Shown one piece after another: positions 16,873 through 57,100 of a DNA stretch of 64,000 nucleotides; position 1 is the stretch's first letter; each line of letters opens with the position of its first letter. The position numbers and the translations under genes are program-made. This DNA is from a virus. Under the pieces are notes generated by a model, which was not told where the DNA came from, did not search any database, and saw only the letters and a program-made list of their open reading frames with translations. The stretch covers positions 18,086 through 82,085 of the IMG/VR virus record IMGVR_UViG_3300047476_001831. One strand, written 5' to 3'.

Positions 16873-16891
16873 ATTAAAAACTAATATTGAG

Positions 16892-17131
16892 ATGAAAAAA
16901 ACCCCAATTCAAAATGTTATTGACAAAGTTGAGAAACTCGTAAGAGAAAGTGAAGTTGGTACAGAGGAAAGAAGAAAACTGAATCTTGTAGTTTCTTATC
17001 TGTGGGACGAACTTGACAATGAGAGGAAAAATATGACTGAAGTGTTTGATTCTTGTAAAAAAGAACATAGGGAGGTAACAGGAAAAATGTGGGTTAATAA
17101 ACATTTTATGGATTACGAAAAATTTTTATGA
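16892..17131 (+). CDS. 79-residue helical protein
   Basis: ATG at 16892 is preferred; an in-frame start at 16814 would overlap the preceding gene. Charged, coiled-coil-like (VIDKVEKLVRESEVGTEER). Unknown. Its stop overlaps the next start. Confidence 0.65.
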   Translation: MKKTPIQNVIDKVEKLVRESEVGTEERRKLNLVVSYLWDELDNERKNMTEVFDSCKKEHREVTGKMWVNKHFMDYEKFL

Positions 17132-17259
17132 TGGAAAACGAAAATCAGGGTAAAACACCAAAACAAATCAAATTATCCTACCAAATCTTTGCAGGTTCAA
17201 TGTTGGGTTTAATTATATTAGGTTTGGTTTATCTCATTAAGTTGGGATTTGGATTGTAA
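17128..17259 (+). CDS. 43-residue membrane protein
   Basis: ATGATG at 17128/17131 overlaps the previous stop. A charged N-terminus and one hydrophobic span (residues 20-40). Single-pass small protein of unknown role, ending 5 bases before the split tRNA-Leu. Confidence 0.55.
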   Translation: MMENENQGKTPKQIKLSYQIFAGSMLGLIILGLVYLIKLGFGL

Positions 17260-17360
17260 ATGAAGGTTGGGTGGTGTAATGGTAGCCACGCAAGACTTAA
17301 AGAAAACTCGTAAAATTCTAAAAAAAATGTGTTTGTTAGTTCGGTTTAGGTACATTTGTT

Positions 17361-17374
17361 GATATTTATATATA
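17361..17374 (+). promoter_or_regulatory. late-promoter-like motif inside the intron
   Basis: GATATTTATATATA, 12 bases upstream of the HNH ATG; the same string precedes the HNH gene at 9001. Confidence 0.45.
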
Positions 17375-17385
17375 AAGAAGTTTAT

Positions 17386-18219
17386 ATGAAAACAAAATAC
17401 AACAAAGAGGTATTAACCGAGGCAATTAGAAAAAGTTTTTCGATTGCCGAAACTTGTAGAAATCTGTCAATTAGACCTAGTGGTGGTAATTACAAAACAT
17501 TAAATTCTTTAATAAAAGAATACGATATTGACATTACTCACTTTACAGGACAAGGTTGGAATGTTGGATTGAAATTTAGACCAATGAAAACTTACTTATT
17601 AGAAGATATCTTGGTTGAAGATTCACAATATAGAAGTTCTTACAAACTAAAAAACAAATTGTTTGAAAATGGGATTAAACAAGAAAAATGTGAGGTTTGT
17701 TCAAATTCGGTATGGAACAATAAAAAAATTCCTCTTGAACTCCACCATATAAATGGAGTGAATACTGATAACAGAATAGAAAACTTACAGATTTTATGTT
17801 GTAATTGTCACGCACAAACTGAAAATTTTAGAAAAGGGAAGAGTGCTCTCGCTGAAAAGAGGGAAGTAGAATACCGTAAATTCAAGGAAGCCTCAGCTAG
17901 TAATGTTGGTGGTAATCTTGAGCCAAGTCTCAGGAATGAGAAAGGTGCAGAGACTAGACACGGTACATCTAAGTCTAAAAAACCAAAAAGACTTTGTAGT
18001 CTTTGTGATAAAGTTTTGAAGAATAATCAGACAACATATTGTTCAACAGAATGTTATTATCAAGGAACAAAAGGTAAAAGACCCCCAGTATTTGAACTTA
18101 TTAAAAAATTTGAAGACCTAAAAACATTTGTTAGTGTTGGAAAATTTTATAATGTTAGTGATAATGCAGTTAGGAAATGGTGTTCTTATTATGGTATTTT
18201 AGATATGGTGAAGGTATAG
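17386..18219 (+). CDS. intron-encoded HNH homing endonuclease
   Basis: 277 residues from ATG 17386; an upstream in-frame TTG would translate the promoter motif. CEVCSNSVWNNKK, then the HNH core LELHHINGVNTDNR and IENLQILCCNCHAQT (zinc Cys pairs plus catalytic His). A linker around residues 165-195 (SASNVGGNLEPSLRNEKG) is the translation of the ribozyme core. The C-terminus has another Cys-pair knuckle and a helix-turn-helix (VGKFYNVSDNAVRKWC) for site binding. The stop lies within the S element. It would cut intron-less tRNA-Leu genes to spread the intron. Confidence 0.92.
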   Translation: MKTKYNKEVLTEAIRKSFSIAETCRNLSIRPSGGNYKTLNSLIKEYDIDITHFTGQGWNVGLKFRPMKTYLLEDILVEDSQYRSSYKLKNKLFENGIKQEKCEVCSNSVWNNKKIPLELHHINGVNTDNRIENLQILCCNCHAQTENFRKGKSALAEKREVEYRKFKEASASNVGGNLEPSLRNEKGAETRHGTSKSKKPKRLCSLCDKVLKNNQTTYCSTECYYQGTKGKRPPVFELIKKFEDLKTFVSVGKFYNVSDNAVRKWCSYYGILDMVKV

Positions 18220-18320
18220 TCCAGACTACAAACAAGAAATTGGTGGTGAAAACCATAGTAGTAAGAAAATCTTGTGGTCAGTAAGACCGTGCGGGTTCGA
18301 GTCCCGCCCCGACTACTAAA

Positions 18321-18394
18321 GATTCTATAGCTCAATTGGTTAGAGCTTTCCGCTCATAACGGAGGGGTTCGAGGTTCAAGTCCTCGTGGAATCA
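18321..18394 (+). tRNA. third tRNA with CAT anticodon
   Basis: Acceptor GATTCTA with TGGAATC, anticodon loop CTCATAA on TTCCG/CGGAG. With two others at 13484 and 13565, the set may be initiator, elongator and Ile2, but which is which is not decided. Confidence 0.92.
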
Positions 18395-18399
18395 CAATT

Positions 18400-18485
18400 G
18401 CCTAAGTGGCGGAATTGGTAAACGCAATTGTCTTAGAAACAATCGTCACATAAATGACTTGTGGGTTCGACTCCCACCTTGGGTA
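18400..18485 (+). tRNA. tRNA-Leu (TAG)
   Basis: Acceptor GCCTAAG with CTTGGGT, anticodon loop CTTAGAA on ATTGT/ACAAT, variable arm GTCA/TGAC. Confidence 0.95.
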
Positions 18486-18518
18486 CAATATTTTTTCACG
18501 TCTAATTCAATTAATTAA

Positions 18519-30425: not shown

Positions 30426-30454
30426 AAAAAGGGACTATTCAGTCCCTTTTTTCT
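30426..30454. terminator. bidirectional terminator
   Basis: AAAAGGGACT pairs with AGTCCCTTTT, with A and T runs on the two sides, so it stops both converging genes. Confidence 0.92.
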
Positions 30455-32465
30455 TTTTAACCTTTTTAACTTCTTTTGGTTTGAAAATAACATTTTCTTC
30501 TTCTACTGTAAGTGTATATTCATCATTCTCAACTACATTTCCATTTAATACTTCCTCCGATATAAAATCTTCAATTTTATCTTGTATTGCACGTTTGATT
30601 GGTCTAGCTCCATAAGTTTCATCAAAACCTACTTTGGATATTAGTTCCAATACTTTTTCATCACAATTGATGTTATAATTTAAACCTTTCAATCTACTGA
30701 TTAATTTATCAATTTCTAGTTTAACTATTTGTTTAACTTCATCTTCTTTCAATGTGTTGAAAACAATAATTTCGTCAATACGATTTAAAAACTCAGGGGC
30801 AAAAAACTTTTTGAGTTCTTTTTTCAGAGTGTCTCTTTTTTGTTCCTCTTCAATATATGTGTTCGTCATTGTTTTAAATCCAACACCAGTCCCAAAGTCT
30901 TGTAATTTTTTAACACCCAAATTTGATGTCATAATAATGACACAATTTTTAAAGTTAATTTTTCTACCCAATCCATCAGTAAGATGTCCATCATCTAAAA
31001 CTTGGAGTAAGGTTGAAAATACATCTTTATTAGCCTTTTCAATTTCATCAAAAAGAATTACAGAATATGGTTTATTTTTAACTTGTTCTGTTAATTGTCC
31101 CCCTTCATCATAACCAACATAACCAGGAGGTGAACCAATCAATCTTGATATTGTGTGTTTTTCTTGGAACTCTGACATATCTACACGAATAAGATTATCT
31201 TCACTTCCAAAGATTTCTTTTGCTAATTGTTTTGCAAGATAAGTTTTACCCACACCTGTTGACCCTAAGAAAATAAATGAACCAATTGGTTTAGATGGGT
31301 CTTTAATACCTAATCTGTTTCTTCTTATGGCTTTAGCTATTTTAGAAACAGCTTCAGACTGACCAATTACTTTTGAAGATAGATTTTCATCTAATGAAGA
31401 TAATTTATTGGTTTCATCTGAACTCATTTTTGATACAGGTATTTTAGTCATATTAGATACTACTTCATATACTAATTCAGAACTAACCTCTTTTTTCTTA
31501 TGTAATAAATCAAATTCAAATTTCTTTTTTTCATCTTCCAATCTATCTAAGATTTTTGTTTCCTTGTCTCTTAAATCTGCAGCTAATTCGTAGTTTTGAG
31601 TTTTAACAACCTCAATCTTTTCTTGTTTGATTCGTTGTGCTTGAAGTTTTAAATCTTCAATAACTTGGGGCATTTTGATTTCAACTTGACTTCTTGCCCC
31701 AACTTCATCAATAATATCAAATGCTTTATCTGGGAACTCTCTGTCTGTGATATATCTTTCCGCTAAATCAACACATAATTTTAAAACCTCATCGGTATAA
31801 CTTACTTTGTGGTAATTTTCATATTTTTCTTTAACATTGATAAGGATTTGTAATGTTTCATCTTTTGATGATGGGTCAACAATTACTTTTTGGAAACGTC
31901 TTTCTAATGCCCCATCTTTTTCAAAGTTCTTTCTATATTCATCTAGTGTTGTTGCACCAATACATTGGATTTCACCCCTTGCCAAAGCTGGTTTGAATAT
32001 GTTTGATGCGTCTAAAGAACCTGAAGAATTACCAGCACCTACTATTTGATGGATTTCATCTATAAATAATATAATATTTGGGGCTGATTGTAACTCTTCA
32101 ATAATTACTTTCATTCTTTCTTCAAATTGGCCACGATACTTAGTTCCAGCAACAATTGAAGTCATATCCAAAGACATAATTCTCTTATCCATTAGATTTC
32201 TTGGACATTCACCATTCAATATTTTTAGTGCTAATCCTTCAACAATTGCAGTTTTACCACAACCTGGTTCACCAATTATAATTGGGTTGTTTTTCTTTCT
32301 TCTTGATAAGATTTGTGCAATCCTTGTGATTTCTCTATCACGACCTACAACCGGGTCAAGTTTTCCTTCTTCAGCAAGTTTTACCAAATCTTTTGCAAAG
32401 TTATTTAGTACTGGTGTATCACCCTTACCTTTACTTGAGTAATCTCCATCTTTAGAATCTATCAT
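30435..32465 (-). CDS. ClpC-like AAA+ unfoldase lacking the N-domain
   Basis: 676 residues. The first AAA+ module has Walker A GEPGCGKT (near residue 67) and Walker B IILFIDEIH; the second has GSTGVGKTYLAK and VILFDEIEKA, sensor and box VII FLNRIDEII. Between them is a ClpC-type middle with a UVR-like YELAADLRDKE rather than the long ClpB coiled coil. A VGF tripeptide sits in the loop that in ClpA/ClpC docks on ClpP (GTGVGFKTM), so it could feed host ClpP. The normal N-terminal substrate domain is absent, implying a dedicated adaptor. Confidence 0.9.
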   Translation of the reverse strand: MIDSKDGDYSSKGKGDTPVLNNFAKDLVKLAEEGKLDPVVGRDREITRIAQILSRRKKNNPIIIGEPGCGKTAIVEGLALKILNGECPRNLMDKRIMSLDMTSIVAGTKYRGQFEERMKVIIEELQSAPNIILFIDEIHQIVGAGNSSGSLDASNIFKPALARGEIQCIGATTLDEYRKNFEKDGALERRFQKVIVDPSSKDETLQILINVKEKYENYHKVSYTDEVLKLCVDLAERYITDREFPDKAFDIIDEVGARSQVEIKMPQVIEDLKLQAQRIKQEKIEVVKTQNYELAADLRDKETKILDRLEDEKKKFEFDLLHKKKEVSSELVYEVVSNMTKIPVSKMSSDETNKLSSLDENLSSKVIGQSEAVSKIAKAIRRNRLGIKDPSKPIGSFIFLGSTGVGKTYLAKQLAKEIFGSEDNLIRVDMSEFQEKHTISRLIGSPPGYVGYDEGGQLTEQVKNKPYSVILFDEIEKANKDVFSTLLQVLDDGHLTDGLGRKINFKNCVIIMTSNLGVKKLQDFGTGVGFKTMTNTYIEEEQKRDTLKKELKKFFAPEFLNRIDEIIVFNTLKEDEVKQIVKLEIDKLISRLKGLNYNINCDEKVLELISKVGFDETYGARPIKRAIQDKIEDFISEEVLNGNVVENDEYTLTVEEENVIFKPKEVKKVKKKKGTE

Positions 32466-37914: not shown

Positions 37915-37929
37915 ATAAAATTATGACAA

Positions 37930-37960
37930 AACCCCCATTTAGAAATAAGTGGGGGTTTTT
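37930..37960 (+). terminator. rho-independent terminator
   Basis: ACCCCCA pairs with TGGGGGT, then TTTT. It lies between the head-operon gene and the terminase, which argues against a terminase start upstream of it. Confidence 0.85.
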
Positions 37961-37975
37961 ATATTTATATAAAAT
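37961..37975 (+). promoter_or_regulatory. late-promoter-like motif for terminase
   Basis: ATATTTATATAAAAT, 7 bases before the ATG at 37983. Confidence 0.5.
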
Positions 37976-37982
37976 ACAATTT

Positions 37983-39752
37983 ATGAGTTTAACAAAAGAA
38001 CAAGTGATGATAGAGTATGTAAGATGTATGAAAGATACACCTTACGCACTAAGAACATATTTGGAAACATACGACAACACCGTGTCAAAATATGTTCCTT
38101 TAGAGTTATTCCCAGACCAAGTTTCATTATTAAATGATTATGAACAATACAATGAGAATATCGCATTAAAATACAGACAGGCTGGTGTATCAACAGTAAC
38201 TGCAGCTTGGATTTCAAAAAAAATAGCTTTTGCCAAAAAGACAAAACCAGAAAAGATTTTGATTATTGCCAACAAATTGGACACCTCTTTAGAAATGGCC
38301 AATAAAATTAGAATGTTCATTAGTCAATGGCCTAGTTGGGTTGGAATTGACTTTGCGACTGAAAAGAACTCTCAAAAACATTATAAAACAAATAATGGTT
38401 GTGAAGTTAAGGCTGTTGCAACATCTAAGGATGCTTTACGTGGTTTTACCCCAACAATTCTTGTATTTGACGAAGCTGCGTTCATTGATGCTGATTCTGA
38501 TTTTTGGGCTGCTTGTATGGCTTCATTATCAACTGGGGGTAAAGTTATTGTTGTTTCAACTCCAAATGGTTACGACCCAATTTATTATGAAATATATAAC
38601 CAAGCAAGTAGAGGTATGAATGATTTCAAAATCTCTGAAATGTATTGGTTTAGAGACCCAAGATACACCAAGGATTTATATTTGGTTAAAACTCAAGATG
38701 TTATTCATTATCTTTTAAATAAGGAAGAATACTCCAAAGAAAGTATTAATAGTTGGGAATCTATTCCATTTGAGGAAAGAAATTACGATGAACTCAAAAT
38801 GATGATGGATTCTGGTTACAAACCTTGTTCGTCTTGGTTTGAGGGTATGGTCAAAAAATTGAAGTACGACAAACGTAAAGTTTCTCAAGAGTTGGAGTGT
38901 AACTTTTTAGGTTCTGGTGACAATGTATTTGATTCTTTGTTAATGCAAAAGATTAAAGAAAATTACATAAGAGAACCCCAAAATAAGATGATTGGTAATT
39001 CTTTATGGTTATGGAAAGAACCTGTGATGGGACATAAATACGTGATGGGTGTTGATGTTAGTAGAGGTGACAGTGAAGACTTTAGTTCATTTCAAATTAT
39101 TGATTTTGATGAAAGAGAACAAGTTGCAGAATATGTGGGAAAATTACCACCAGATACGATGGCCGAATTATGTTATAAATGGGGTAATATGTATAATTGT
39201 TTTATTGTAATAGACATTACAGGTGGTATGGGTGTTTCAACATCAAGGAAACTACAAGAAATGGGTTACAAAAATTTGTATGTTGATGGTGTTGATTTAG
39301 CTAATAAATGGAAATATGACCCCAAGGCATTAGATAAAATACCCGGATTAAATTTTAACAACAAACGTGTTCAAATTATTGCATCATTTGAAGAAGCAAT
39401 GAGACATGAGTTTAAGATTTATAGTATGAGATTGTTCAATGAAATGAATACTTTTGTATATATAAATGGAAGACCTGACCATCAAAAGGGTCAACATGAC
39501 GACTTAATTATGTCAATTGCGATGGCCACTTATGTTGCCGAATCGTCATTTACTAGTTTAGAGAGGGTTACAGAACAAACAAAAGCAATGTTGGATTCTT
39601 GGTCAGTAAGTAACAATGAAAATGTTACTAAACAAATAGAATTTAATCCGGTAATGCCATATTATCAAGATAACAATTTCAATAGACATAATCAACAACA
39701 AATCAGTAAAGAGGATTATATGAAATATTCTTGGTTATTTGGTGGGAGATAA
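37983..39752 (+). CDS. terminase large subunit (T4 gp17-like)
   Basis: 589 residues from ATG 37983; an in-frame ATG at 37923 would have to translate through a terminator and a promoter. Packaging ATPase: Walker A-like KYRQAGVST (near residue 62), Walker B ILVFDEAAF (near residue 160), coupling VVSTPNG. The nuclease domain carries GVDVSRGDSED, VIDITGGMG and a final HDDLIMSIA acidic site. It pumps and cuts the DNA concatemer at the portal. Followed by a small gene and the portal gene. Confidence 0.95.
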   Translation: MSLTKEQVMIEYVRCMKDTPYALRTYLETYDNTVSKYVPLELFPDQVSLLNDYEQYNENIALKYRQAGVSTVTAAWISKKIAFAKKTKPEKILIIANKLDTSLEMANKIRMFISQWPSWVGIDFATEKNSQKHYKTNNGCEVKAVATSKDALRGFTPTILVFDEAAFIDADSDFWAACMASLSTGGKVIVVSTPNGYDPIYYEIYNQASRGMNDFKISEMYWFRDPRYTKDLYLVKTQDVIHYLLNKEEYSKESINSWESIPFEERNYDELKMMMDSGYKPCSSWFEGMVKKLKYDKRKVSQELECNFLGSGDNVFDSLLMQKIKENYIREPQNKMIGNSLWLWKEPVMGHKYVMGVDVSRGDSEDFSSFQIIDFDEREQVAEYVGKLPPDTMAELCYKWGNMYNCFIVIDITGGMGVSTSRKLQEMGYKNLYVDGVDLANKWKYDPKALDKIPGLNFNNKRVQIIASFEEAMRHEFKIYSMRLFNEMNTFVYINGRPDHQKGQHDDLIMSIAMATYVAESSFTSLERVTEQTKAMLDSWSVSNNENVTKQIEFNPVMPYYQDNNFNRHNQQQISKEDYMKYSWLFGGR

Positions 39753-39956: not shown

Positions 39957-41732
39957 ATGGAACAAAATCAAAACAACTTAACGGTTTGGCAAAGGTTATC
40001 TCATGCGTTTGGTCCCAACGCACTATTGAATCAGGATTATCCGACTTATAAGTTTGATAAAAAAGAACTTTTAAGAACAACTTCCAAACAAGAATATGAA
40101 AAGGAACTACTTCAGGCTCAACAAACATATTATTTAGCAAATCAATGGACAAAAATTGAAAGTAATTTATATACACAAGCGGTATATTATGAACCAACAA
40201 GATTAGCATCGTTTTATGATTATGAATCTATGGAATATACACCTGAAATATCTGCAGCATTAGACATTTATGGAGAAGAATCAACAACAGTTGATGAGGA
40301 TGGGTTTATGTTACAGATTTATTCAGAATCTAAACGTATTAAAGGTATTTTAGCCGACTTATTTAATAATATTTTGGATATCAACACCAACTTACCTATG
40401 TGGACAAGAAACACATGTAAGTATGGTGATAACTTTGTTTATCTCAAATTAGACCCTGAAAAGGGTGTTGTTGGTTGTATGCAATTACCAAACATTGAAA
40501 TTGAACGTTTAGAAAGAGGTATGCCAGCACAAGCAAGTAGACAAAACGTTGAAGAACCTGCTGAAAACAAAGGTTTGAGATTTAAGTGGAAGGCTAAAGA
40601 TATGGAGTTCAATTCATGGGAAATTGCTCACTTCCGTTTATTAGGTGATGACAGAAAACTTCCTTACGGTACATCTATGTTAGAAAAGGCAAGACGTATT
40701 TGGAAACAATTATTGTTATCTGAGGATGCTATGTTAATATATAGAACTTCACGTGCACCTGAAAGAAGGGTATTCAAAGTATTTGTTGGTAATATGGATG
40801 ATAAAGATGTTGAACCATATGTACAACGTGTTGCAAATAAATTTAAACGTAGTCAAGTTGTAGATTCTCAAACAGGTAATGTTGATATGAGATTCAATCA
40901 AATGGCAGTTGACCAAGATTATTTTATTCCTGTTAGAGATGCCGCACAAACAATGCCAATTGAGACTTTGCCTGGTGGACAAAATTTAGGTGAAATTGCT
41001 GATATTGAATATATTCAAAAGAAATTATTAACCGCTTTACGTGTACCAAAAGCTTTCTTAGGTTTTGAAGAACCTGTTGGTGATGGTAAAAACTTATCAT
41101 TGATAGACATCCGTTTTGCTAGAACAATCAATAGAATACAAAAATCTATGATTGCAGAATTAAATAAAATTGCTATCATACATTTATTCCTTTTGGGGTT
41201 TGAAGATGAATTAAACAACTTTACTTTAGGATTAACCAATCCTTCAAGTCAAGCTGATTTATTGAAGATTGATATTTGGAAAGAAAAAATCGCATTATAC
41301 AAAGAATGTGTTACGCCAATTGGTGGAACAGCTCCAACTTCTATTACTTGGGCTAAAAAACACATTTTAGGTTTTTCTGAAGATGAGATTAAAAATGACT
41401 TACAACAACAAAGAATTGAAAAGGCAGTTGATGCCGAACTTACAAATACTGCAACAATCATAACTAAAACAGGTGTATTTGATATGGTTGATAAATTATA
41501 CACTCAAAAAAGTGGTACTACTGCGGGTGGTGCTGCACCACCTCCACCAGCTGGGGCACCTACAACACCGGAAATTCCAGGAGGAATACCTGAAAGTACT
41601 AAAAAAGACAATTTGAAAATACTATTAGAAAGTAAAAGTATTTTAGACGAAGATGGTTACATAGATTTATCTAAAGGTAAAAATTACTTAGGAGAAATGG
41701 AAGCTGAATTGAATAAACTTATTAATGACTAA
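39957..41732 (+). CDS. portal protein (T4 gp20-like)
   Basis: 591 residues. SRAPERRVFKVFVGNM, DYFIPV, IETLPGGQNLGEIADIEYI and ALRVPKAFLGFEE are the diagnostic blocks of T4-type portals. The C-terminus has an Ala/Pro/Gly-rich stretch. It forms the twelve-fold ring at the head vertex through which DNA enters and on which the head assembles. Preceded by terminase and followed by the prohead protease region, the standard order. Confidence 0.94.
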   Translation: MEQNQNNLTVWQRLSHAFGPNALLNQDYPTYKFDKKELLRTTSKQEYEKELLQAQQTYYLANQWTKIESNLYTQAVYYEPTRLASFYDYESMEYTPEISAALDIYGEESTTVDEDGFMLQIYSESKRIKGILADLFNNILDINTNLPMWTRNTCKYGDNFVYLKLDPEKGVVGCMQLPNIEIERLERGMPAQASRQNVEEPAENKGLRFKWKAKDMEFNSWEIAHFRLLGDDRKLPYGTSMLEKARRIWKQLLLSEDAMLIYRTSRAPERRVFKVFVGNMDDKDVEPYVQRVANKFKRSQVVDSQTGNVDMRFNQMAVDQDYFIPVRDAAQTMPIETLPGGQNLGEIADIEYIQKKLLTALRVPKAFLGFEEPVGDGKNLSLIDIRFARTINRIQKSMIAELNKIAIIHLFLLGFEDELNNFTLGLTNPSSQADLLKIDIWKEKIALYKECVTPIGGTAPTSITWAKKHILGFSEDEIKNDLQQQRIEKAVDAELTNTATIITKTGVFDMVDKLYTQKSGTTAGGAAPPPPAGAPTTPEIPGGIPESTKKDNLKILLESKSILDEDGYIDLSKGKNYLGEMEAELNKLIND

Positions 41733-41753: not shown

Positions 41754-42470
41754 ATGAAATTTGGAGTATTAAAATCAAAAATAGATTATGTTCTTTCAGA
41801 ATCATTTAAGAATGAAGAACATTTTAAAGAAGAAGTTAAATTATTCAAAAAGAATATATTAGAAAACAAAACACTAAGTAAACTTTTTTACTTATATGAC
41901 GAATTAAATTCTAAAAAGGGAGTTGATAAAAATATTGTCAACGATTACATAAATGAATCTGTAACAGTTTATGAAAACTTAATTAATAAACTTAAAAGAA
42001 AGGATTTAATAAATGTAAATCAATGGTTATTGGGGGTTAAAGTTGACAATAGTTATGAACATATTGACAATTTGTTTTCAACTGATATTCTCAAACTTGA
42101 AAACAAAATACAGAGTAAAAAAATTATTGCAGAATCACTAACCCAAAAATTAAAGGAAAACAAAGAACTTATCAATATCCCTATAAGTTCTATGATTAAA
42201 TTAGCCAATAAGACTATCAAAAATTTTGTTGAGGGGTTAAATGAAAGTGACAAACAAGAGTTAATTAAATTATTGTCTGAGGATGATAATACACTAGAAA
42301 GTAGATATAATGTTATAAAAGAAGAAGTAATCGGTAAATTAACCAATCACAAAATGAATTCTGATTCTGAAACTTCTTATAAGATTGAAGAAACAATTAC
42401 AAAAATCAAACAAGATAAGTTTGACAAATTATCTTTCTACAAACTAAATAACTTGAATAATAATCTTTAA
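41754..42470 (+). CDS. 238-residue helical head-module protein
   Basis: Almost entirely helical and charged, with NINVPI-type breaks and LSEDDNTLESRYNVIKEEV. It occupies the place between portal and protease where T4-like phages carry prohead core proteins. It overlaps the bS21 gene on the other strand by 4 bases at their ends. Function unknown. Confidence 0.75.
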   Translation: MKFGVLKSKIDYVLSESFKNEEHFKEEVKLFKKNILENKTLSKLFYLYDELNSKKGVDKNIVNDYINESVTVYENLINKLKRKDLINVNQWLLGVKVDNSYEHIDNLFSTDILKLENKIQSKKIIAESLTQKLKENKELINIPISSMIKLANKTIKNFVEGLNESDKQELIKLLSEDDNTLESRYNVIKEEVIGKLTNHKMNSDSETSYKIEETITKIKQDKFDKLSFYKLNNLNNNL

Positions 42471-42661
42471 TTGTTTTCTTTTCTTCTGAAATTTTCAGAA
42501 TAGATTGCTTTTTTAATCTCCGTTCTTTTTTTCACGGATTTTTTTGTGAAATCTTTTCTATTCTTTAGTTCAGTCATCAACTTGGTTTTGATTACTTTAC
42601 TTTTGAATATCTTTAATGCTTTTTCAAGTGGGGTTTTACTGTCTACGTTTACGATTAACAT
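42467..42661 (-). CDS. rpsU: ribosomal protein bS21 (phage-encoded)
   Basis: 64 residues: MLIVNVDSKTPLEKALKIFK, then VIKTKLMTELKNRKDFTKKS, then KRTEIKKAIYSENFRRKE. This is the complete bS21 plan of an N-terminal strand and two basic helices, close to the Bacteroidota form (LKxFKxKxxKTxxxxELRxRxxFxKxSVxRR). bS21 binds the 30S platform near the anti-Shine-Dalgarno sequence; in Bacteroidota it helps sequester it. It is alone on the minus strand in the head operon, so it is likely expressed separately. No strong Shine-Dalgarno precedes it. Confidence 0.9.
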   Translation of the reverse strand: MLIVNVDSKTPLEKALKIFKSKVIKTKLMTELKNRKDFTKKSVKKRTEIKKAIYSENFRRKENN

Positions 42662-42747
42662 ACTTTTAGTTTATGATGATTATTTTTGACTATTAATATA
42701 TAATTATTTATTTTTTTTCACAAGAATAAACTTAAAAAATATTATGA

Positions 42748-43200
42748 ATGAAAAAAGGTAAAACCTGTAAAATACAGGGATTCAAAACAACGAAAGTAGT
42801 GTATGGTACAACTGACTCTTTTGATTTAAAATCAATCTATCTAAATTTACAGACTTGGGTTGAACCAAAAGAAGAACTTGAAAAGTGGGATAGAGTTGTA
42901 TTAAACTTTTCAAGACAAATCAAACACACAATATACAATCATATAAATACAAAATTGTTTGAAAAAAACTTTATTTCTGATTTAGATTTACGTTCTAGTG
43001 GACTTTTAATCAACAAAAAATCTTTCTTAAATCTAGAGGTAAATTTCTTCTTAAAAGAAAAAGAATTAGATTTTAAATCAACCATTCTCAAAAATGAATT
43101 AAAGGATTTAACAAAAAAAATTATTCAAGAAAACTTTAATAACAACCCTTATTTCTCCTTCACTCTCACAAAAAAGTGTAAAAACGAAGTTGGTGAATAA
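42748..43200 (+). CDS. 150-residue head-module protein
   Basis: Basic start (MKKGKTCKIQGFKTTKV), then helical WVEPKEELEKWDRVVLNFSRQIKHTI and a C-terminus of mixed strands. Not recognised; in T4-like phages this slot often holds a small head or neck factor. Confidence 0.72.
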   Translation: MKKGKTCKIQGFKTTKVVYGTTDSFDLKSIYLNLQTWVEPKEELEKWDRVVLNFSRQIKHTIYNHINTKLFEKNFISDLDLRSSGLLINKKSFLNLEVNFFLKEKELDFKSTILKNELKDLTKKIIQENFNNNPYFSFTLTKKCKNEVGE

Positions 43201-43242: not shown

Positions 43243-43962
43243 ATGAATTTAAGACTTATTAAACCTGGAGAAATAGGTAAAGGTATTTTAATTGAAAATG
43301 ATGGCTGGGTTTCACCAACAAGTGAAAAGAATTCCTATATAATGGAACAAAAAACTTTGTTGGACTATTCTAAACCTTTTGAGTTTTATGCTGTACTACA
43401 AAAATATAACACACCAAATAGAAATGGTAGAATATATCCTGAAAGGATATTAAAGAGAGAAGCTGAAAATTATAAAAAAATGATTGCCAAGGGTACATCA
43501 TTATCTGAGTTAAATCACCCAGAATCATCTTTAATTGATTTGGATAGAGTTTCACACATTATTACAGACGTATGGTGGGAAGGACCTATTTTGATGGGTA
43601 AACTAAAATTATTAACTTCACCAGGTTTTCACGAAAGAGGTATTGTATCAACAAAAGGAGATATGGCCGCTAACTATCTAAGACAAGGTGTTACATTAGG
43701 TATATCATCTCGTGGTGTAGGTTCACTTAAAAAGGTTGGGGAACAAAATGAAGTTCAAGACGATTTTGAACTTATATGTTTTGACTTAGTATCTTCTCCA
43801 TCAACACCGGGTGCTTATTTATTTTTGAACAAAGAGGATAGAGATATGTATGCTGAAAACTTAGAAGAAGATAAAAGAGTTGCTATGGAAAGAAATGTTG
43901 GAGATTTTGGAAACAAATCTCTTGACTTAATGAAAAGATTAAACGATTATTTGGGATATTAA
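43243..43962 (+). CDS. prohead core protease (T4 gp21-like)
   Basis: 239 residues. The His motif SELNHPESS (near residue 90) and the Ser motif GISSRGVGSL (near residue 158) with DLVSSPSTPGAY are the landmarks of the S78/gp21 family, which shares the herpesvirus protease fold. It cleaves scaffold and capsid proteins during prohead maturation. Followed by a small gene and the acidic scaffold, as expected. Confidence 0.93.
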   Translation: MNLRLIKPGEIGKGILIENDGWVSPTSEKNSYIMEQKTLLDYSKPFEFYAVLQKYNTPNRNGRIYPERILKREAENYKKMIAKGTSLSELNHPESSLIDLDRVSHIITDVWWEGPILMGKLKLLTSPGFHERGIVSTKGDMAANYLRQGVTLGISSRGVGSLKKVGEQNEVQDDFELICFDLVSSPSTPGAYLFLNKEDRDMYAENLEEDKRVAMERNVGDFGNKSLDLMKRLNDYLGY

Positions 43963-44367: not shown

Positions 44368-45882
44368 ATGACAGAAAAAAAATCATTAGTTGAAGAAGCA
44401 ATACTACAGATGAAAAATCTAGAAGAAGCTGTTGCTGAAAACGCAAAAGGAATACTTGCCTCTACTATGAGACAAGAAATCAAAGACTTGGTAAAAGAAT
44501 CTCTCAAAGAAGAAGAAGACGATGAAGAGATTGAAAGTGATGACGAAATGGAAGATTCAGAAGACATAGCTGACATCGAGTTCTCTGATGAAGATGAAGA
44601 CATGGACGAAATGGACATGGATGATGAAATGGAGGATGAAGATGAAATGGATATGGAAGATGAAGATGAAATGGATATGTCTGAACTTGATATGGAGGGT
44701 GACACAATAGACCTCACAAATCAACCTACATCACAAGTGCTTAAAGTTTTCAAACTTTTGAGTCCTGAAGATGAAATTATTGTTACTAAGGACGATTCTG
44801 GAAACATCAATCTTAAAGACAATGCAACCGATAAGGAATATATGATTGTTTCTGAAGGTGAATTTGGAATGGATGAAGAGATGTACGAAATGGAAGACGA
44901 AATGTACGAAATGGATGACATGGGAAAAGAAATGTACGAAATGGAAGACGAAATGTACGAAATGAATCACATGGATGAAGAAATGTACGAAATGGAGGAC
45001 GAACTAAACATCGAAGATGAATTAGAAGATGTTTTCAGTGAAGAAGATACTGAAACAATTTATGAGGTTGAATTAGATGACGAATCTGAATTTGATTTAG
45101 ATGAAATGGATTCTGAAGAAGAGGAATTTATGATGGAATCTAAAAAAATGAAAAAAGGATTCAAACCTAAAGGAATGAACTTAGGCGATGCAAAATCTTA
45201 TAAAATTTCACCAAAACCAAATATGGAAGGTGGTTTCAAAGTTGTAAAAACTAAAGCTGACAAAACTATGGGAACTGGAAGTGCATCTTCTTTCAAATAT
45301 GGTAAAGTTGATGATGGTGATTTCAAAATCAAACCTAAAGCTAGAAAAGAAACTAAAGAAGGTATGATGAAAATGCCTAAGAAAATGGAAACAAAAGAGG
45401 CTTCTCGTACTTATGCAATGGGTTCTAAAAGTGGTCGTGGTTTAAGAAAAGGTATTACACCTAATAGAAATCTTACATTTGAATCTACAGATTCTCAAGA
45501 ATTGAATCTACTTAGAGAAAAAAATGAAGAGTACAGAAAAGCATTAAATATTTTTAGAAATAAACTTAATGAAGTTGCAATCTTTAATTCAAACTTGGCG
45601 TACGCAACAAGATTGTTTACAGAACACTCAACTTCTAAACAAGAAAAAATTAATATTCTAAAAAGATTTGATGGTGTTGAAACTCTTAAAGAATCTAAAA
45701 ATCTTTATAAAGTTATAAAAGACGAATTATCAAGTAATATTTCACAACCAATTACTGAATCTGTTGAAAGAACAATTGAAAAAACACCTTCAACTGGTTC
45801 TGCAATTAACTTGATTGAATCAAAAACTTACGAAAATCCTCAATTCATGAGAATGAAGGATTTAATGTCAAAATTAAAATAA
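44368..45882 (+). CDS. prohead scaffold/core protein (T4 gp22-like)
   Basis: 504 residues. A helical start, then a very acidic low-complexity middle (residues 50-260) of Glu, Asp and Met including repeats of EMYEMEDEM, a basic linker (residues 270-360), and a C-terminal helical region (NLAYATRLFTEHSTSKQEKI) seen in T4-like core proteins of marine phages. It builds the internal scaffold and is later cleaved by the gp21-like protease. Position between protease and capsid gene supports this. Confidence 0.85.
   Translation: MTEKKSLVEEAILQMKNLEEAVAENAKGILASTMRQEIKDLVKESLKEEEDDEEIESDDEMEDSEDIADIEFSDEDEDMDEMDMDDEMEDEDEMDMEDEDEMDMSELDMEGDTIDLTNQPTSQVLKVFKLLSPEDEIIVTKDDSGNINLKDNATDKEYMIVSEGEFGMDEEMYEMEDEMYEMDDMGKEMYEMEDEMYEMNHMDEEMYEMEDELNIEDELEDVFSEEDTETIYEVELDDESEFDLDEMDSEEEEFMMESKKMKKGFKPKGMNLGDAKSYKISPKPNMEGGFKVVKTKADKTMGTGSASSFKYGKVDDGDFKIKPKARKETKEGMMKMPKKMETKEASRTYAMGSKSGRGLRKGITPNRNLTFESTDSQELNLLREKNEEYRKALNIFRNKLNEVAIFNSNLAYATRLFTEHSTSKQEKINILKRFDGVETLKESKNLYKVIKDELSSNISQPITESVERTIEKTPSTGSAINLIESKTYENPQFMRMKDLMSKLK
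44871..45003 (+). repeat. tandem repeat in scaffold gene
   Basis: Units of about 24 bases based on GAAATGTACGAAATGGA(A/T)GA repeat about five times, encoding EMYEME/DDEM blocks. Prone to length change by slippage or recombination. Confidence 0.8.
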
Positions 45883-45922: not shown

Positions 45923-47779
45923 ATGGGAGCATTATTAGAATCGGGTCTTGTTGGTAACATTGGTTTGAAACACCTTAAAGTTATCAAAGAAGATACTATC
46001 AACAAATGGGATAAATTAGGATTCCTTGAAGGTCTTAAAGGCCACCTAAAAGAAAACGTAGCTCAGTTATATGAAAACCAAGCTTCTTTCCTTATCAACG
46101 AAGCAACTTCTGATGGATCATCTGGTTCATTCGAAACTGTTGTTTTCCCTATCGTAAGAAGAGTTTTCTCTAAATTGTTAGCTAACGACATCGTATCTGT
46201 ACAAGCTATGAACTTACCTATCGGTAAATTGTTCTACTTCGTACCTAAAATCCAAGGTTATAGTGGTGGTACTTATAACGGAATTATTGGTAATTCAGGT
46301 GAGCACTACGCTCCTGTAGGAAGTCCTGGTAATTATCCTGGTGTACCTACTTCTGGTTATACTGTAGGTGATGGTACTTATAACCCAACTTACGTAAAAA
46401 ATCTTTATGATTTATTTTATGAAGGAAACGAAGCAGGTCTTAACCCAGCTGGTTTGTTTGACTATTCAAAAGGTCAATGGACTGCAGTTACAGCTTCAGC
46501 TACAACTCAAACTTGGTCAAATGGTGAAATTGTTGACTTCGAAATTACCGAACAAACTAATATTAGAAAGGTTTTAGTTAAAGTATGTGGTTTCCAATAC
46601 GATGGTGTTGGTAAACTTATCGCTCCAGATGGTTCTGAAGTTGATACAGAAACATTCTTATCTGACCTTAAAGTAATTAGAGGTGCCGGTCTTTCTGCTA
46701 CTACTTCACCTTGTGATGTAATTGGTTGGGAAACTAACACATATCCAAACTTATTGTTTAGAGTTGTAACTCAACAATATGGAAAAGGTATTGTTCAACC
46801 TACTTCAGTTTCTAGAACAACTTCATTCCCTACAAATGGTGGTGGTACTTATAACGACACTTGTATCCAAGATGGTTGTATGTTAATTGAGGTTGACTTA
46901 TCTTGTCCAGCTTGTGCTGATTGTGGTTCATCTTCTTTAGATGGTTACACAGGTACAACTATCATGTCAGCTTCTTCGGCTACTTCTTTCACAGTTGTTT
47001 ATAGAAGATACCAAGAACTTGAATTTGAAGACAAAATTGGTGAGGTTTCTTTCGACCTTGAATCAGTAACTGTTTCTGTAACTGAAAGAAAATTAAGAGC
47101 TCAATGGTCTCCTGAACTTGCTCAAGACGTTGCTGCATTCCACAACATCGATGCTGAAGCTGAATTAACTGCTCTTCTTTCTGAGCAAGTTGCTGCTGAA
47201 ATCGACCGTGAAATCTTACGTGACTTGAGAAAAGGTGCAGCTTGGAACTTGAGATGGGACTACAACGGATGGAGAAGAATCTCTACTGGTACTGTAGCTT
47301 ACACTCAAAAAGACTGGAACCAAACTCTTATCACAGCTATCAACCAACTTTCTGCTCAAATCCACAAATCAACTCTTAGAGGTGGTGCTAACTGGATTGT
47401 TGTTTCTTCTGAGGTTTCTGCAATCTTTGATGACTTGGAATACTTCCACGTATCAAATGCTTCTCCTGAGCAAGACCAATACAACATGGGTATTGAAAGA
47501 GTAGGTACATTAGCTGGTAGATACCAAGTATATCGTGACCCTTACTTCCCACCTAACCAAGTGTTAATCGGACATAAAGGTACATCACTTCTTGATACTG
47601 GTTACATCTACGCTCCGTATGTTCCACTTCAATTAACTCCAACAATGTATAATCCGTTCAACTTTACACCAATCAAAGGTATCATGACTAGATACGCTAA
47701 AAAGATGGTAAATAACAGATTTTACGGAAGAATTACTGTTGATGGTGTTAGAACATTTGACTTACAAGAATTGAGATAA
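45923..47779 (+). CDS. major capsid protein (T4 gp23-like)
   Basis: 618 residues. Start MGALLESGLVGNIGLKHLKV, then INEATSDGSSGSFETVVFPIVRRVFSKL, and an end RYAKKMVNNRFYGRITVDGV with FDLQELR, all typical of gp23-type HK97-fold capsid proteins. The N-terminal arm is probably removed by the gp21-like protease. A central insertion (residues 110-350) with a CPACADCG cluster may be a surface domain. Codons are visibly more C-rich than in neighbours, as for a very highly expressed gene. A strong terminator follows. Confidence 0.94.
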   Translation: MGALLESGLVGNIGLKHLKVIKEDTINKWDKLGFLEGLKGHLKENVAQLYENQASFLINEATSDGSSGSFETVVFPIVRRVFSKLLANDIVSVQAMNLPIGKLFYFVPKIQGYSGGTYNGIIGNSGEHYAPVGSPGNYPGVPTSGYTVGDGTYNPTYVKNLYDLFYEGNEAGLNPAGLFDYSKGQWTAVTASATTQTWSNGEIVDFEITEQTNIRKVLVKVCGFQYDGVGKLIAPDGSEVDTETFLSDLKVIRGAGLSATTSPCDVIGWETNTYPNLLFRVVTQQYGKGIVQPTSVSRTTSFPTNGGGTYNDTCIQDGCMLIEVDLSCPACADCGSSSLDGYTGTTIMSASSATSFTVVYRRYQELEFEDKIGEVSFDLESVTVSVTERKLRAQWSPELAQDVAAFHNIDAEAELTALLSEQVAAEIDREILRDLRKGAAWNLRWDYNGWRRISTGTVAYTQKDWNQTLITAINQLSAQIHKSTLRGGANWIVVSSEVSAIFDDLEYFHVSNASPEQDQYNMGIERVGTLAGRYQVYRDPYFPPNQVLIGHKGTSLLDTGYIYAPYVPLQLTPTMYNPFNFTPIKGIMTRYAKKMVNNRFYGRITVDGVRTFDLQELR

Positions 47780-51435: not shown

Positions 51436-54255
51436 TTAAGAGTTTAATCCGTTTTGTCCTCCAAGTAAAACAGCATCAAGTAAAGTAACTGCTCTACCAT
51501 TTCCATCAGTCCAAGTTGGGTGAGGTACAGCTACTTTAACTATTGTACTACCACTATCACAAGGACAACATATTTGACAAGCAAAATATTCAGTTCCTGC
51601 TGAAATTGGGTCAAATGTTGGGAATCGTTCACCTAATCTGCAGAAAAGTTGGTTTATGTAAAAATTTTTAGGTTCAAATAATGGGTTAACATTATCAATC
51701 GGACAAGTATTTACAACTTGATAACAAATACCATTTGAGTCACTTATAACTTGATTTGGTAAACCATATGGGAAACCTGTGATTTCCAACCAATTATTTA
51801 AAGTTACATTGACTTGTTGTGGTACTAAAGTATCACAATTGATGACAGTTAAACCAATTGTTGCACCTGAAGAACATTCTTCACAAGATCCGTATATTTC
51901 TGGGTTTGCTTCGAAAACTATAGTTTCACCATATTGGGCGAAAGTATATACATCAATAATTTCAAAACATAACCAGTCTGAGTTACCCCAATGTGAACGA
52001 ACGTAGTCACCTATATTATAAGTTCCACCAGTTGATACTAAAATACCATCGAAAACACCAGTACAATCTTGACAATAAAATAATTGATGTGTCGTTCCAG
52101 TACAAGTTTCACAATCTTGATAATGAATTATACTAGGGTAATTAGTAAGACCGAAAAGATATGAATCTATATTAGTTACACTTTGGATTTGTGTAATTTC
52201 ACAACAAGCACTTAATATAGGATTGAAGAATGTATTACCTAATTGTAGTCGTTCATTTGACGTTGTTTCTCCTGATACAAAATCTGTTGTACAACCTAAT
52301 TCAAATGTTTGTAAATATGAACTGAACCACGTTTCACCTAAACTATTTGTATCAATTCCGTAAACTTGACTTATGCCATCATTACCTAAATTGTTATATG
52401 TTTTTAATAATGTATCTGTTGATACATCAAATTCGTAAATGAGATTACAACTTAAATCTGTGGCATAAAGTCTATTGTTGGTGGGGTTATATTTTATTTT
52501 ATTTTGAATATTACTACAAGAAGAATAAATTACTATTATAAAAGTGTTTGATAATACATTAAATTTAATATAGAAACCACTATTCGTTGAAATGTATAAA
52601 ATGTTATTACTAGGATTATATGTAAATGATTCTGGTGTTGTGCCTAAAGAATATTGATTTACAAATGTCCAACTTGGTGATTGATTATATATTTCTAATG
52701 TATTGTTAGAAGAGTTAAGTGTATAAATCAATGAACCAATTTGAATGATATCTTTGTAACTAGTAAATGTATTACCAAACCCCCCAACAAAAGACATCGT
52801 ATTATGAGATGTCCCACTATATACTAAAATTGTTGCTGCTATTGGAAATCCAATAGATGATGTAGTAACATAAAAATATCCATCATTAGGGTTAAAATAA
52901 ACTTTTTTAGGAATAGCCCCTGATATTGTTAAATTAGTATACGGAGATAAATTAGTATAATCAAAAAAAGTGACATTATAGTTTGGCGATGAAAAAGTAC
53001 TAGTATTTGAAACACAAATTACACCATTTATTTCATCAATGTCCAAACTTTCTGGATTGATTAATACTGAATTAGATTGTTCCACCACCGAAAGTGTTGT
53101 CAAATCAATTTTCCCAATTCTATTTGAATCTCCAAAAGGAATGAAAGCAAAGTTACTCGAATCTATTTTAAAATCTCTTCCTCTGTATAGACCCAAATTT
53201 CCATAGTTTATAAGATTGATTGGTCCACAAACTTCAAGTTGTTCACAAGTTACGTAATCATAAATTAATCCATAACATTCCAAACAATCCTCACAATCTC
53301 CTTGTGGGTCAAAATTAGCTAATTCATTAAGAGTAACAGGTTCACTGGGTGGTACAACATCAGGACTAATTTCATAACAACCATCACCAAAAGATAAATG
53401 TGTTGAAATACCTGGTTCGAAAAGAGATGAAGCCCAAACAATTTGATCAGGACCTCCCAAACAATTAACTAACTTTTTCTTTTCGTTTACATTTGATAGA
53501 CAATCATCACAATTGTTATTTGTGTCATTATATAAACCTAAGTCAGTTACAAATAAATGATTTGCTGGTGGGCTTGATTGTTCTCTAACGACTCCACAAT
53601 ATTGAGTTAAACCATCTAAACCTGTAAAGGTAATTAAATGATCCTTATAACCACTTGAAGGTAATGATACAACAATTGTTGTAATTGTTGTTGTACAAGG
53701 TTCTACAAAATAAAACAACGGTGAGTTGTCGATACAAGTTTGACAATCAGTTTGACTACTATAACTAGTAAGGAAAATTTCAGCTAGTAAACCAAAAAAA
53801 CTAAAACCAACGAATGTAAAACAACCTTGATATTGTTGTGTTTCTCCGAAACCACCAATGTAGAAATCTAAAAAATAAACCTCATCTATTGTTGGTGTTG
53901 GTGTAATTTGATTTATTGGGATGTATATACTACTAATCCCATTTGAAGCATTACAAATGGTAAACTCAAGAAAATTAGAATTAGCTGCTAGACAATCTGT
54001 ACAACCATTTGGTTCAGATGCACCATAAGATGTAATAATTTCAACATTCACTACACCCATTGGATTAGGTTTGAAATTCTGAACTATGTAACAACCCAAT
54101 TCTAAACAACCAAATACAGTATTTTCACAACCTGTTGCACCGCTCATGGTATATACATTACCCACTATTGGAGTTATAAGAGTATCATCGATATTGAAAT
54201 CACGTCTAAGAAATTGACCTGAACAATCTGAAAGTTGTAAATTAATAGTTGCCAT
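51436..54255 (-). CDS. 939-residue Cys-rich adhesin-like tail protein, copy 1
   Basis: Many CxxC(L) elements occur along the chain (GCTDCL, DCQTCI, NCDDCL, DCEDCLECYG, DCETCTG, GSCEECSSG, CQICCPC), alternating with short beta domains. A central block (about residues 370-640) has NHL/YncE-like propeller repeats (SLDIDEINGVICVSN, KVYFNPNDGYFYVT). It ends DAVLLGGQNGLNS. The next gene encodes a paralogue of exactly the same length. Likely a tail fibre or receptor-binding protein; late promoter at 54263. Confidence 0.8.
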   Translation of the reverse strand: MATINLQLSDCSGQFLRRDFNIDDTLITPIVGNVYTMSGATGCENTVFGCLELGCYIVQNFKPNPMGVVNVEIITSYGASEPNGCTDCLAANSNFLEFTICNASNGISSIYIPINQITPTPTIDEVYFLDFYIGGFGETQQYQGCFTFVGFSFFGLLAEIFLTSYSSQTDCQTCIDNSPLFYFVEPCTTTITTIVVSLPSSGYKDHLITFTGLDGLTQYCGVVREQSSPPANHLFVTDLGLYNDTNNNCDDCLSNVNEKKKLVNCLGGPDQIVWASSLFEPGISTHLSFGDGCYEISPDVVPPSEPVTLNELANFDPQGDCEDCLECYGLIYDYVTCEQLEVCGPINLINYGNLGLYRGRDFKIDSSNFAFIPFGDSNRIGKIDLTTLSVVEQSNSVLINPESLDIDEINGVICVSNTSTFSSPNYNVTFFDYTNLSPYTNLTISGAIPKKVYFNPNDGYFYVTTSSIGFPIAATILVYSGTSHNTMSFVGGFGNTFTSYKDIIQIGSLIYTLNSSNNTLEIYNQSPSWTFVNQYSLGTTPESFTYNPSNNILYISTNSGFYIKFNVLSNTFIIVIYSSCSNIQNKIKYNPTNNRLYATDLSCNLIYEFDVSTDTLLKTYNNLGNDGISQVYGIDTNSLGETWFSSYLQTFELGCTTDFVSGETTSNERLQLGNTFFNPILSACCEITQIQSVTNIDSYLFGLTNYPSIIHYQDCETCTGTTHQLFYCQDCTGVFDGILVSTGGTYNIGDYVRSHWGNSDWLCFEIIDVYTFAQYGETIVFEANPEIYGSCEECSSGATIGLTVINCDTLVPQQVNVTLNNWLEITGFPYGLPNQVISDSNGICYQVVNTCPIDNVNPLFEPKNFYINQLFCRLGERFPTFDPISAGTEYFACQICCPCDSGSTIVKVAVPHPTWTDGNGRAVTLLDAVLLGGQNGLNS

Positions 54256-54280: not shown

Positions 54281-57100
54281 TTAACTGTTTAGTCCATTCA
54301 TTCCCCCCAATCGTACAGCATCAAGTAAAACTATTGTTCTACCTTGACCATTTGTCCATTGAGGATGAGGGACACTAATTTGATTTATTGTTCCTCCTGA
54401 TTCGCAAGGACAACATATTTGACAAGCAAGATATTCAGTACCTGCTGATATTGGATCTAAAGGAATAGTTCTATTACCTACTCCACAGAAGGATTGGTTG
54501 AAATAATAATTTTGAACTTCGAATGGTGGGTAAACATTATCAATTGGGCAAGCATTTACTACTTGATAACAAGTACCATTAATATCTGACACAACACTTA
54601 ACGGAGTTTGGAATGGAAAACCGATTATTTGCGACCAATCATTTAATGTAACATTAACTTGAAGTGCGTTTTGTGTGTCACAATTAATGAGAGTTAAACC
54701 TAAAGTTGCTCCTGATGTACATTCCTCACAAGTATTGAAACCAGGACCTGAAGCAATGAAACTGAAATTACTGTTATTTTGTGAATTATCAGCATAATCA
54801 ATAATCTGAAAACACAACCAATCTGAATTACCAAATTGAGAACGAACGTATTGTCCGATAGAGTAGTCCCCCTGTGGTGCCATCAATATACCCCCAAATC
54901 CGGAACCGCATAACTCAACATAAAAAATATCTTTTGTTGAACCAGTACAAGTTTCACAATCTTGATAATGTAACATACTTATGTACTGTGTTAGGTTTAG
55001 AAATCCAACATCAGTTATACTTGTAACATTTGTAATTTCACAACAAGCACTTAATTGTGTATTAAAAAATACTGTACTAGCCGACAAATATTCGTTTGAT
55101 GATGTTTGTCCCGTAACAAAGTCAGTTGTGCAACCTAAATTAAATAATTTATCGTATGAACTAAACCAAACATTACCACTAGTGTCAATATCTATACCCC
55201 AAACTTGGGATATATTTGAACTATTCAGATTGTCGTATGTTTTTAGTAAAGTATTTGTTGTTGCATCAATTTCATATATATGGTTACAACCTTGGTCTGT
55301 TATATATAATTTGTTATTTAGTGAATCAAATTTAATTTCTTCAAAATTTCCACTACAAAATGTAGTAAATGGATGGAATGTATAACCACTTGATAAAGTA
55401 TCAAATTTTACATATACTGAATTGTTGGTTGCTATATAAATTGTTGTACCATCTACATCTAACGATTTTGGGGTATATGGTATTATAAAGTTTCCTTGGT
55501 AAGTGTATGAAGAATCAAAAACATCGATTGAACCATTTAAATTTAATGCGTAAAATGTTGAACCCACTTGTACAATGTCAGAATAACTATTATTCATATT
55601 ACCGAATGAGTTTATTTCTGCCATTGTACTATATGAAGTACCACTATAAACTCTAATTGGTAAATCTATATTACCACAACAACCTCCATAGACAACATAA
55701 AAGAATCCATCGTTTGAATTGAAATAAACTTTACGTGGATTAATTGTTGTTGCATTTCCAACAAACGAATAATTAGATAAATTACTAGAATCAAAAAAAC
55801 AAACTTGATTTGAAGCTCCAGGAGCAACACAAACTACACCATTTGATTCGTCAATATCCAAACTCCTTGGTTGAGATAAAATGTTTGATGATGTTTGTAA
55901 AATTGTTTGGGATAATAAATTTACTTCGATAATTCTGGAATCATTTAATAGAGGAACAAATGCTCTGTCAGAGTTAGTAATTGCAAAATCCCCTCCACCA
56001 TATCCTTGTGCTGTTGTACTTATAAAATTCTGTGGGCCACAAATTTCGAGTGGTTCACATGTAATGAAATCATAAATTACGCCATAACACTCCAAACAAT
56101 CCTCACAATCTTTCTGAGGATCATAGTTTGCCAATTCATTAATTGTTACCGCACTCATAGGATCAGCAATACCACTTACCTGATAACAACCATTACCTAT
56201 TGATAAATGTGTAGAATTTCCAACATCGAATAAATTTGATGCCCAAACAACTTCAGTTGTATTATCCAAACAATTAACTAATAATCGTTTGTCATTATTG
56301 AAACTCAAACAATAATCACAATCAATACCAGCTTGTGGATTGAAGACACCTAAATCTGTAACGAAAATACCAGTAGTCGTAGTTGATGCGGTTTTACCCA
56401 CAATACCACAAAACTGAGTTAGTTGAGCCAAATCAGTGTATGTAATCAAGTGTCTTTCCAAATTTGATGTCGGAAGAGCAACATAAATAATGAAACCTGA
56501 TGAACAGTCCTCAACTTCATAAACAAGTGGTGATGTACTCAAACAAGTTTGACAATCTGTTTGAGCACTAAATACTGTCAATATTGTTGGAGGTATGAAC
56601 TGTTTATTAGGGTCTATATATGTCAAACCTTGATACTTATAACAAGCTCTATCAAAATAAGAACCCATCTCACTAAAAGAAACATAATATTCTAAAAAGA
56701 AAACATCACCTATATTTGGATATGGTGGTGTAATTTGATTGATTGGGATTGGAAGTTCTCCACCCTCAAAACAAGGTTTAAAAATAACATAGTTAGAAAT
56801 TGCATTCAAACAATCTTCACAACCTGATGGATTTTGAGGTCCATATGAATTGACGATAATTGCCGTTGGTGTGGAGGGACGTGGGGTAAGTTGAAAATCC
56901 TCAACTCTATAACAACCGTATGGTATTCCCGCTTGACAAGGAGGTATTCGACAAGGTAAAGTAATTCCACTTAATGAATAAACATTACCTACTATTAGTT
57001 GATTTGAGTTATCTTCTATTACAACACTATATCCAAGACACTCGAATCCATCAGATGGAACACAAGTACAATTAACTATATTTACAATGTATGATGCCAT
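54281..57100 (-). CDS. 939-residue Cys-rich adhesin-like tail protein, copy 2
   Basis: Same domain order as copy 1: CxxC blocks (GCEDCL, DCQTCL, DCDYCL, DCEDCLECYG, DCETCTG, NTCEECTSG, CQICCPC), a propeller-like middle (SLDIDESNGVVCVAP, KVYFNSNDGFFYVV), and the end DAVRLGGMNGLNS. The N-terminal and central parts diverge most, while the C-terminal ~200 residues and the Cys frame are conserved, as expected when receptor-facing parts change. Its own late promoter is at 57111. Confidence 0.8.
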   Translation of the reverse strand: MASYIVNIVNCTCVPSDGFECLGYSVVIEDNSNQLIVGNVYSLSGITLPCRIPPCQAGIPYGCYRVEDFQLTPRPSTPTAIIVNSYGPQNPSGCEDCLNAISNYVIFKPCFEGGELPIPINQITPPYPNIGDVFFLEYYVSFSEMGSYFDRACYKYQGLTYIDPNKQFIPPTILTVFSAQTDCQTCLSTSPLVYEVEDCSSGFIIYVALPTSNLERHLITYTDLAQLTQFCGIVGKTASTTTTGIFVTDLGVFNPQAGIDCDYCLSFNNDKRLLVNCLDNTTEVVWASNLFDVGNSTHLSIGNGCYQVSGIADPMSAVTINELANYDPQKDCEDCLECYGVIYDFITCEPLEICGPQNFISTTAQGYGGGDFAITNSDRAFVPLLNDSRIIEVNLLSQTILQTSSNILSQPRSLDIDESNGVVCVAPGASNQVCFFDSSNLSNYSFVGNATTINPRKVYFNSNDGFFYVVYGGCCGNIDLPIRVYSGTSYSTMAEINSFGNMNNSYSDIVQVGSTFYALNLNGSIDVFDSSYTYQGNFIIPYTPKSLDVDGTTIYIATNNSVYVKFDTLSSGYTFHPFTTFCSGNFEEIKFDSLNNKLYITDQGCNHIYEIDATTNTLLKTYDNLNSSNISQVWGIDIDTSGNVWFSSYDKLFNLGCTTDFVTGQTSSNEYLSASTVFFNTQLSACCEITNVTSITDVGFLNLTQYISMLHYQDCETCTGSTKDIFYVELCGSGFGGILMAPQGDYSIGQYVRSQFGNSDWLCFQIIDYADNSQNNSNFSFIASGPGFNTCEECTSGATLGLTLINCDTQNALQVNVTLNDWSQIIGFPFQTPLSVVSDINGTCYQVVNACPIDNVYPPFEVQNYYFNQSFCGVGNRTIPLDPISAGTEYLACQICCPCESGGTINQISVPHPQWTNGQGRTIVLLDAVRLGGMNGLNS

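Follow-up and report, generated by a model that had tools for sequence, protein, structure and literature searches.

The bS21 locus

The window analyzed here is a 64,000-base stretch (bases 18086–82085) of an 82,085-base IMG/VR virus record, the initial 18 kb of which were included in the analysis as a separate locus. Its phage setting is clear from the T4-like portal, prohead protease, major capsid protein and terminase genes that it contains. On the plus strand, the large terminase subunit (positions 37923–39752; PF03237, E 1.7e-11) is followed by the T4-like portal protein (gp20; 39957–41732; PF07230, E 1.7e-79) and by an ORF for a 238-aa protein (41754–42470). An rpsU-like bS21 gene (42467–42661) lies on the minus strand, convergent with the 238-aa gene, and the stop codons of the two overlap by four bases (TTAA). 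On its other side, a divergent intergenic region of 86 bases (42662–42747) carries TTTTGACTATT, an element that most related loci share, and separates bS21 from a plus-strand gene for a 150-aa protein (42748–43200). The prohead core protease (gp21-like; 43243–43962; PF03420, E 1.2e-22; phrog_207), an acidic 504-aa protein (44368–45882) and the major capsid protein (gp23-like; 45923–47779; PF07068, E 1.6e-72) follow on the plus strand, with a 71-aa ORF between the first two. The acidic protein is placed in the scaffold position from its location and composition only and has no family match in Pfam and phrog searches.

Translation of 42467–42661 from its ATG start gives a 64-aa protein, MLIVNVDSKTPLEKALKIFKSKVIKTKLMTELKNRKDFTKKSVKKRTEIKKAIYSENFRRKENN; the plus-strand frame across the same interval is broken by stops. 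The protein matches Pfam Ribosomal_S21 (PF01165) at 45.1 bits (cut-off 27 bits; E 8e-12) over profile positions 2–52 of 55, and its closest solved relatives are ribosomal bS21 chains, 9i5v_9 (E 2e-7) and 7jil_z (E 3e-6), the latter from the Flavobacterium johnsoniae ribosome structure 7JIL (PMC9723584). The expected bS21 helices are present in an AlphaFold2 model (pLDDT 88). A Foldseek search of this model against 350,542 PDB chains returned four matches in all, every one of them bS21 and each individually weak owing to the very small size of the protein. Purifying selection on the phage genes (median dN/dS 0.13 for 113 close pairs), together with the Pfam match, rules out a chance ORF or frame artefact. 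A sequence-only reading had placed a bS21 gene with the full bS21 fold at these positions, giving no strand, and had called the genome Bacteroidota-type; gene and fold are confirmed, and a bS21 of the Bacteroidota kind is supported by Tyr54, the aromatic residue that stacks on the anti-Shine–Dalgarno (anti-SD) sequence.

The gene order around bS21 is conserved in relatives, as is the antisense location of the gene. All 185 loci that extend from the 238-aa gene to the protease carry both bS21 and the 150-aa gene, a count that represents fewer than 185 independent phages since some contigs were fetched by several searches. Among 100 distinct loci, the four-base stop overlap with the 238-aa gene is found in 78, and the median gap between bS21 and the 150-aa gene is 93 bases.

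This arrangement has been described previously. Chen et al. 2022 (PMC9723584) defined five clades (a–e) of freshwater Bacteroidetes jumbo myophages in which bS21 is encoded on the reverse strand amid the genes for terminase, portal, protease and MCP, specifically antisense between portal and prohead protease and flanked by two unassigned genes. The window shares this placement as well as an aromatic residue 54, a changed first helix, low GC and many tRNAs, and we found no difference in kind between it and that group. It is therefore another member of a known group, possibly one of the 14 IMG/VR genomes covered there, and novelty can be claimed neither for bS21 in Bacteroidota phages nor for its position. 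The window phage is T4-like, and its host is probably a freshwater Bacteroidota; SD-depleted genes and the Bacteroidota-type bS21 are indirect signs of a Bacteroidota host. Chen et al. (PMC9723584) report 5–25 tRNAs per phage in this group, and the window has 22 tRNA genes (4189–18486, plus strand) whose anticodons cover almost all amino acids; a tRNA for serine was not found among them.

The strand arrangement bears on how published expression data should be read. Because bS21 is antisense to its neighbors and its stop overlaps that of the opposite gene, late plus-strand read-through would cover bS21 in the antisense direction. Chen et al. (PMC9723584) describe per-gene coverage, and strand-aware counting is not mentioned in the text, so that the published late-expression data for bS21 are ambiguous. 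Similar levels for bS21 and its opposite-strand neighbor would also fit read-through.

The 150-aa neighbor is probably bS21_CN/fam498 of Chen et al. Its AlphaFold2 model (pLDDT 90) has a predicted alpha+beta fold, and searches against the PDB gave middling, unrelated matches (best Foldseek E 0.045; best VIA-align Z 7.7, a value within the background range). The one strong structural match among viral proteins is the uncharacterized A0A8S5L9A5 of Myoviridae sp. ctPuP5. The fold searches thus gave no clear PDB match and no function for this protein.

Divergence of phage and host bS21

Chen et al. (PMC9723584) found residue 54 to be aromatic in all phage bS21s and traced their difference from bacterial bS21 to the first helix. 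What we add concerns mainly how the phage proteins differ from host copies. A comparison with host bS21, proposed in the sequence-only reading, was carried out between 80 distinct phage bS21s from loci of the window type and 79 bS21s from Bacteroidia genomes; the docking half is kept and the first-helix face differs. K40, R46 and A52 of the docking half are common to both sets, and residue 54 is aromatic in 80/80 phage (Y/F/H) and 75/79 host proteins. Host residues E/D8, E/D10, K/R18, K/R21, E/D24, G27 and K/R30 are absent, or almost so, from the phage proteins, with replacements that are mostly S at 21, I at 24 and K/R at 27; the sample is biased at residue 18 by the peptide patterns of the first scan (EKALKIFK among them). 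Positions 18, 21, 24 and 28 are spaced by about one helical turn, which suggests that a single face of the first helix has been replaced. The residue pattern agrees with the positions published in PMC9723584 and extends them.

A subgroup with the window-type locus (L323–L342) keeps the host-like D13-R14 and R18 and is changed at 21, 23, 24 and 27. The first-helix pattern is shared in part by this subgroup and by L220/L318, L314, L071 and L076, and L315 and L219 look host-like. In a tree built from an alignment of only 64 columns, 79 phage rows are grouped together by a branch with full support. The window protein is at most 53% identical to the sampled host bS21s; it resembles bS21 of Bacteroidia such as F. 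johnsoniae (PMC9976891) in family, docking half and Tyr54, but differs in its first-helix face, in this low identity and in the absence of an extended SD. A scan of named genomes for a bacterial source of the phage gene yielded four distant matches; of these, one lies on a phage-like contig that had been binned into a Flavobacteriales MAG.

Among deposited phages, the portal matches most closely that of Microcystis phage Mel-JY01 (L216), where bS21 (13557–13784) follows the protease on the same strand as the head genes and is of a different type, unlike in the window. The different site and type suggest a separate acquisition. In the cultured Flavobacterium phage immuto, which has the next-closest portal, bS21 is neither annotated nor found.

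Shine–Dalgarno sequences in phage and host genes

SD sequences are depleted in the contig, as they are in Bacteroidota and as the sequence-only reading had observed: pairing at or below -5 kcal/mol is seen at 4/114 called gene starts versus 17/114 mock positions, the gene calls being scripted, simple and uncurated. That reading went on to treat the SD-less phage messages as the basis on which a phage bS21 could shift initiation toward them. Its interpretation holds insofar as the phage protein is of the Bacteroidota kind with an aromatic residue 54, but the selectivity argument does not, since Bacteroidia mRNAs are almost all SD-less as well (PMC9976891) and SD absence alone cannot select phage messages. 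A bS21 that hides the anti-SD should favor SD-less mRNAs of phage and host alike. The sole established host mRNA that would be disfavored by such ribosomes is rpsU itself, in hosts that have an SD there. Any selectivity must therefore arise through the altered face of the first helix or through other features. Nor is the idea of a bS21-based shift in initiation new: Chen et al. (PMC9723584) proposed that the phage protein replaces the host copy in ribosomes and, late in infection, picks out phage transcripts.

The SD of rpsU is of interest in its own right. McNutt et al. 2023 (PMC9976891), who also discuss phage bS21, showed that in F. johnsoniae the SD-bearing rpsU mRNA is better translated by ribosomes without bS21, and that SD-dependent translation of rpsU rises when bS21 is lost or carries the Y54A substitution. 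Self-regulated rpsU genes of Bacteroidota are recognized by an extended SD with pairing below about -13 kcal/mol. No SD precedes the window bS21 gene, where pairing of the leader with the 16S tail is +2.1 kcal/mol. Host rpsU leaders split into two sets by their pairing with the 16S tail, and pairing at or below -12 kcal/mol is observed for 15/82 host leaders versus 0/85 leaders of phage bS21 at the window-type locus (Fisher p ~1e-5, uncorrected for relatedness). We found no report of this contrast in the open-access literature that was searched. Given the published autoregulation mechanism, an mRNA without an SD should allow the window bS21 to be made independently of the bS21 feedback by which many Bacteroidota control their own copy. 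The host bS21s closest in sequence to that of the window also lack an SD, however, so its absence in the phage may simply be inherited.

One group of phages provides a contrast. The huge-phage bS21s of L220/L317 (LR756501) and L318 are, like that of the window, Bacteroidota-type with Y/H54 and a non-basic residue 21, but they lie in another genomic setting and are preceded by a GGAGG SD (about -12 kcal/mol); in the L220 contig this strong SD stands before bS21 at about 9001–9192. The most useful new points of this analysis are the pattern of residues, the lack of an autoregulatory SD, to which this SD-keeping lineage forms a counterpart, and the strand caveat.

A different leader element is also present in the window. 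The motif TATTTATA(AATA)AAA stands directly before the start codon in 14/114 window genes, versus 0.4% of random 60-mers; examples are found just upstream of 39773 and 49470 and before two minus-strand genes whose ends lie at 54255 and 57100. The motif is similar to the T4 late promoter TATAAATA, and if it works in the same way, those late mRNAs would have very short leaders.

Possible roles of phage bS21 and other genes of the window

A phage-borne bS21 is among the clearest candidates for viral ribosome remodeling. We think it probable that the window encodes a Bacteroidota-type bS21 that replaces host bS21 on 30S subunits and whose changed first helix helps the phage. Incorporation into host 30S subunits is likely for a bS21 of this kind with an anti-SD-stacking aromatic residue at position 54. 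The conserved C-terminal half would dock on the 30S platform and Tyr54 would keep the anti-SD tail tucked away, leaving the ribosome in the SD-independent mode used by phage and host mRNAs. The altered first helix would then change another contact, with mRNA, another protein or a phage partner, to the benefit of the phage, and synthesis from an SD-less mRNA would let phage bS21 escape the host feedback. A scheme that takes these steps further has the phage protein fill 30S subunits free of feedback, hide the anti-SD, switch off SD-dependent synthesis of host bS21 and so convert the ribosome pool, with the altered helix face adding a new contact to mRNA or to a phage partner such as the 150-aa protein; we regard this as improbable.

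Simple supplementation, in which phage bS21 completes 30S subunits when host bS21 synthesis fails and mRNA choice is unchanged, would account for the conserved docking half and aromatic residue 54, for the SD-less leader that frees the phage gene from feedback, and for the loose binding and late addition of bS21 during assembly (PMC9976891). It leaves the consistent phage–host differences at residues 8, 10, 18, 21, 24, 27 and 30 unexplained, and we consider it unlikely. The altered first-helix face, found in all phages of the window-type locus, would also suit a translation poison, a protein that joins host ribosomes to slow or stop host translation (shut-off) while conferring no preference for phage mRNAs. 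The precedent here is the bS21 of Pelagibacter phage HTVC008M, which enters E. coli ribosomes and leaves them only ~5% active in E. coli extracts (Mizuno et al. 2019, PMC6375957). That assay was run in a foreign host, and a poison fits poorly with a bS21 gene that sits among late head genes, the products of which need the same ribosome pool; we judge this reading improbable. The bS21s of HTVC008M and of the window are both phage-encoded, but the phages and their hosts differ, the host of HTVC008M being an alphaproteobacterium.

Very improbable in our estimation is a structural role or another role away from the ribosome, with phage bS21 acting alongside the linked 150-aa protein, say as part of the head or as a packaged component of the virion. 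The invariable pairing of the two genes across a short common intergenic region is consistent with such a partnership, as are the similar trees and transcription levels reported by Chen et al. (PMC9723584), who raised virion packaging as a possibility. Ribosome binding is nevertheless what the conserved rRNA-docking half and aromatic residue 54 predict, and in other phages (L071, L076, L216) bS21 occurs at other sites without the 150-aa neighbor. Replacement of host bS21 on the 30S subunit is the reading that we favor. We found no published data on incorporation, activity or selectivity of any Bacteroidota phage bS21. Since Bacteroidota bS21 hides the anti-SD, existing tools for F. johnsoniae allow the effect of the phage protein to be assayed, and the residue pattern and the missing self-regulatory SD provide two sharper predictions than a general preference for phage mRNA.

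Several other genes deserve mention. Two adjoining minus-strand ORFs of 939 aa each occupy 51436–54255 and 54281–57100 of the window, the second with no Pfam match, and a 127-aa SET-domain protein is encoded at 11019–11402 on the plus strand (PF00856, E 5e-13). L082 encodes a class II aminoacyl-tRNA-synthetase-like protein of 277 aa (4774–5607, minus strand; PF00152, E 1.5e-14), which is shorter than the usual class II enzyme. Proteostasis genes have been reported for the bS21-encoding Bacteroidetes phage group, and this phage has two: a Clp-type AAA+ ATPase is encoded in the window at 30435–32465 (minus strand) and a full-length HSP70 in L082 at 5933–7798 (plus strand).
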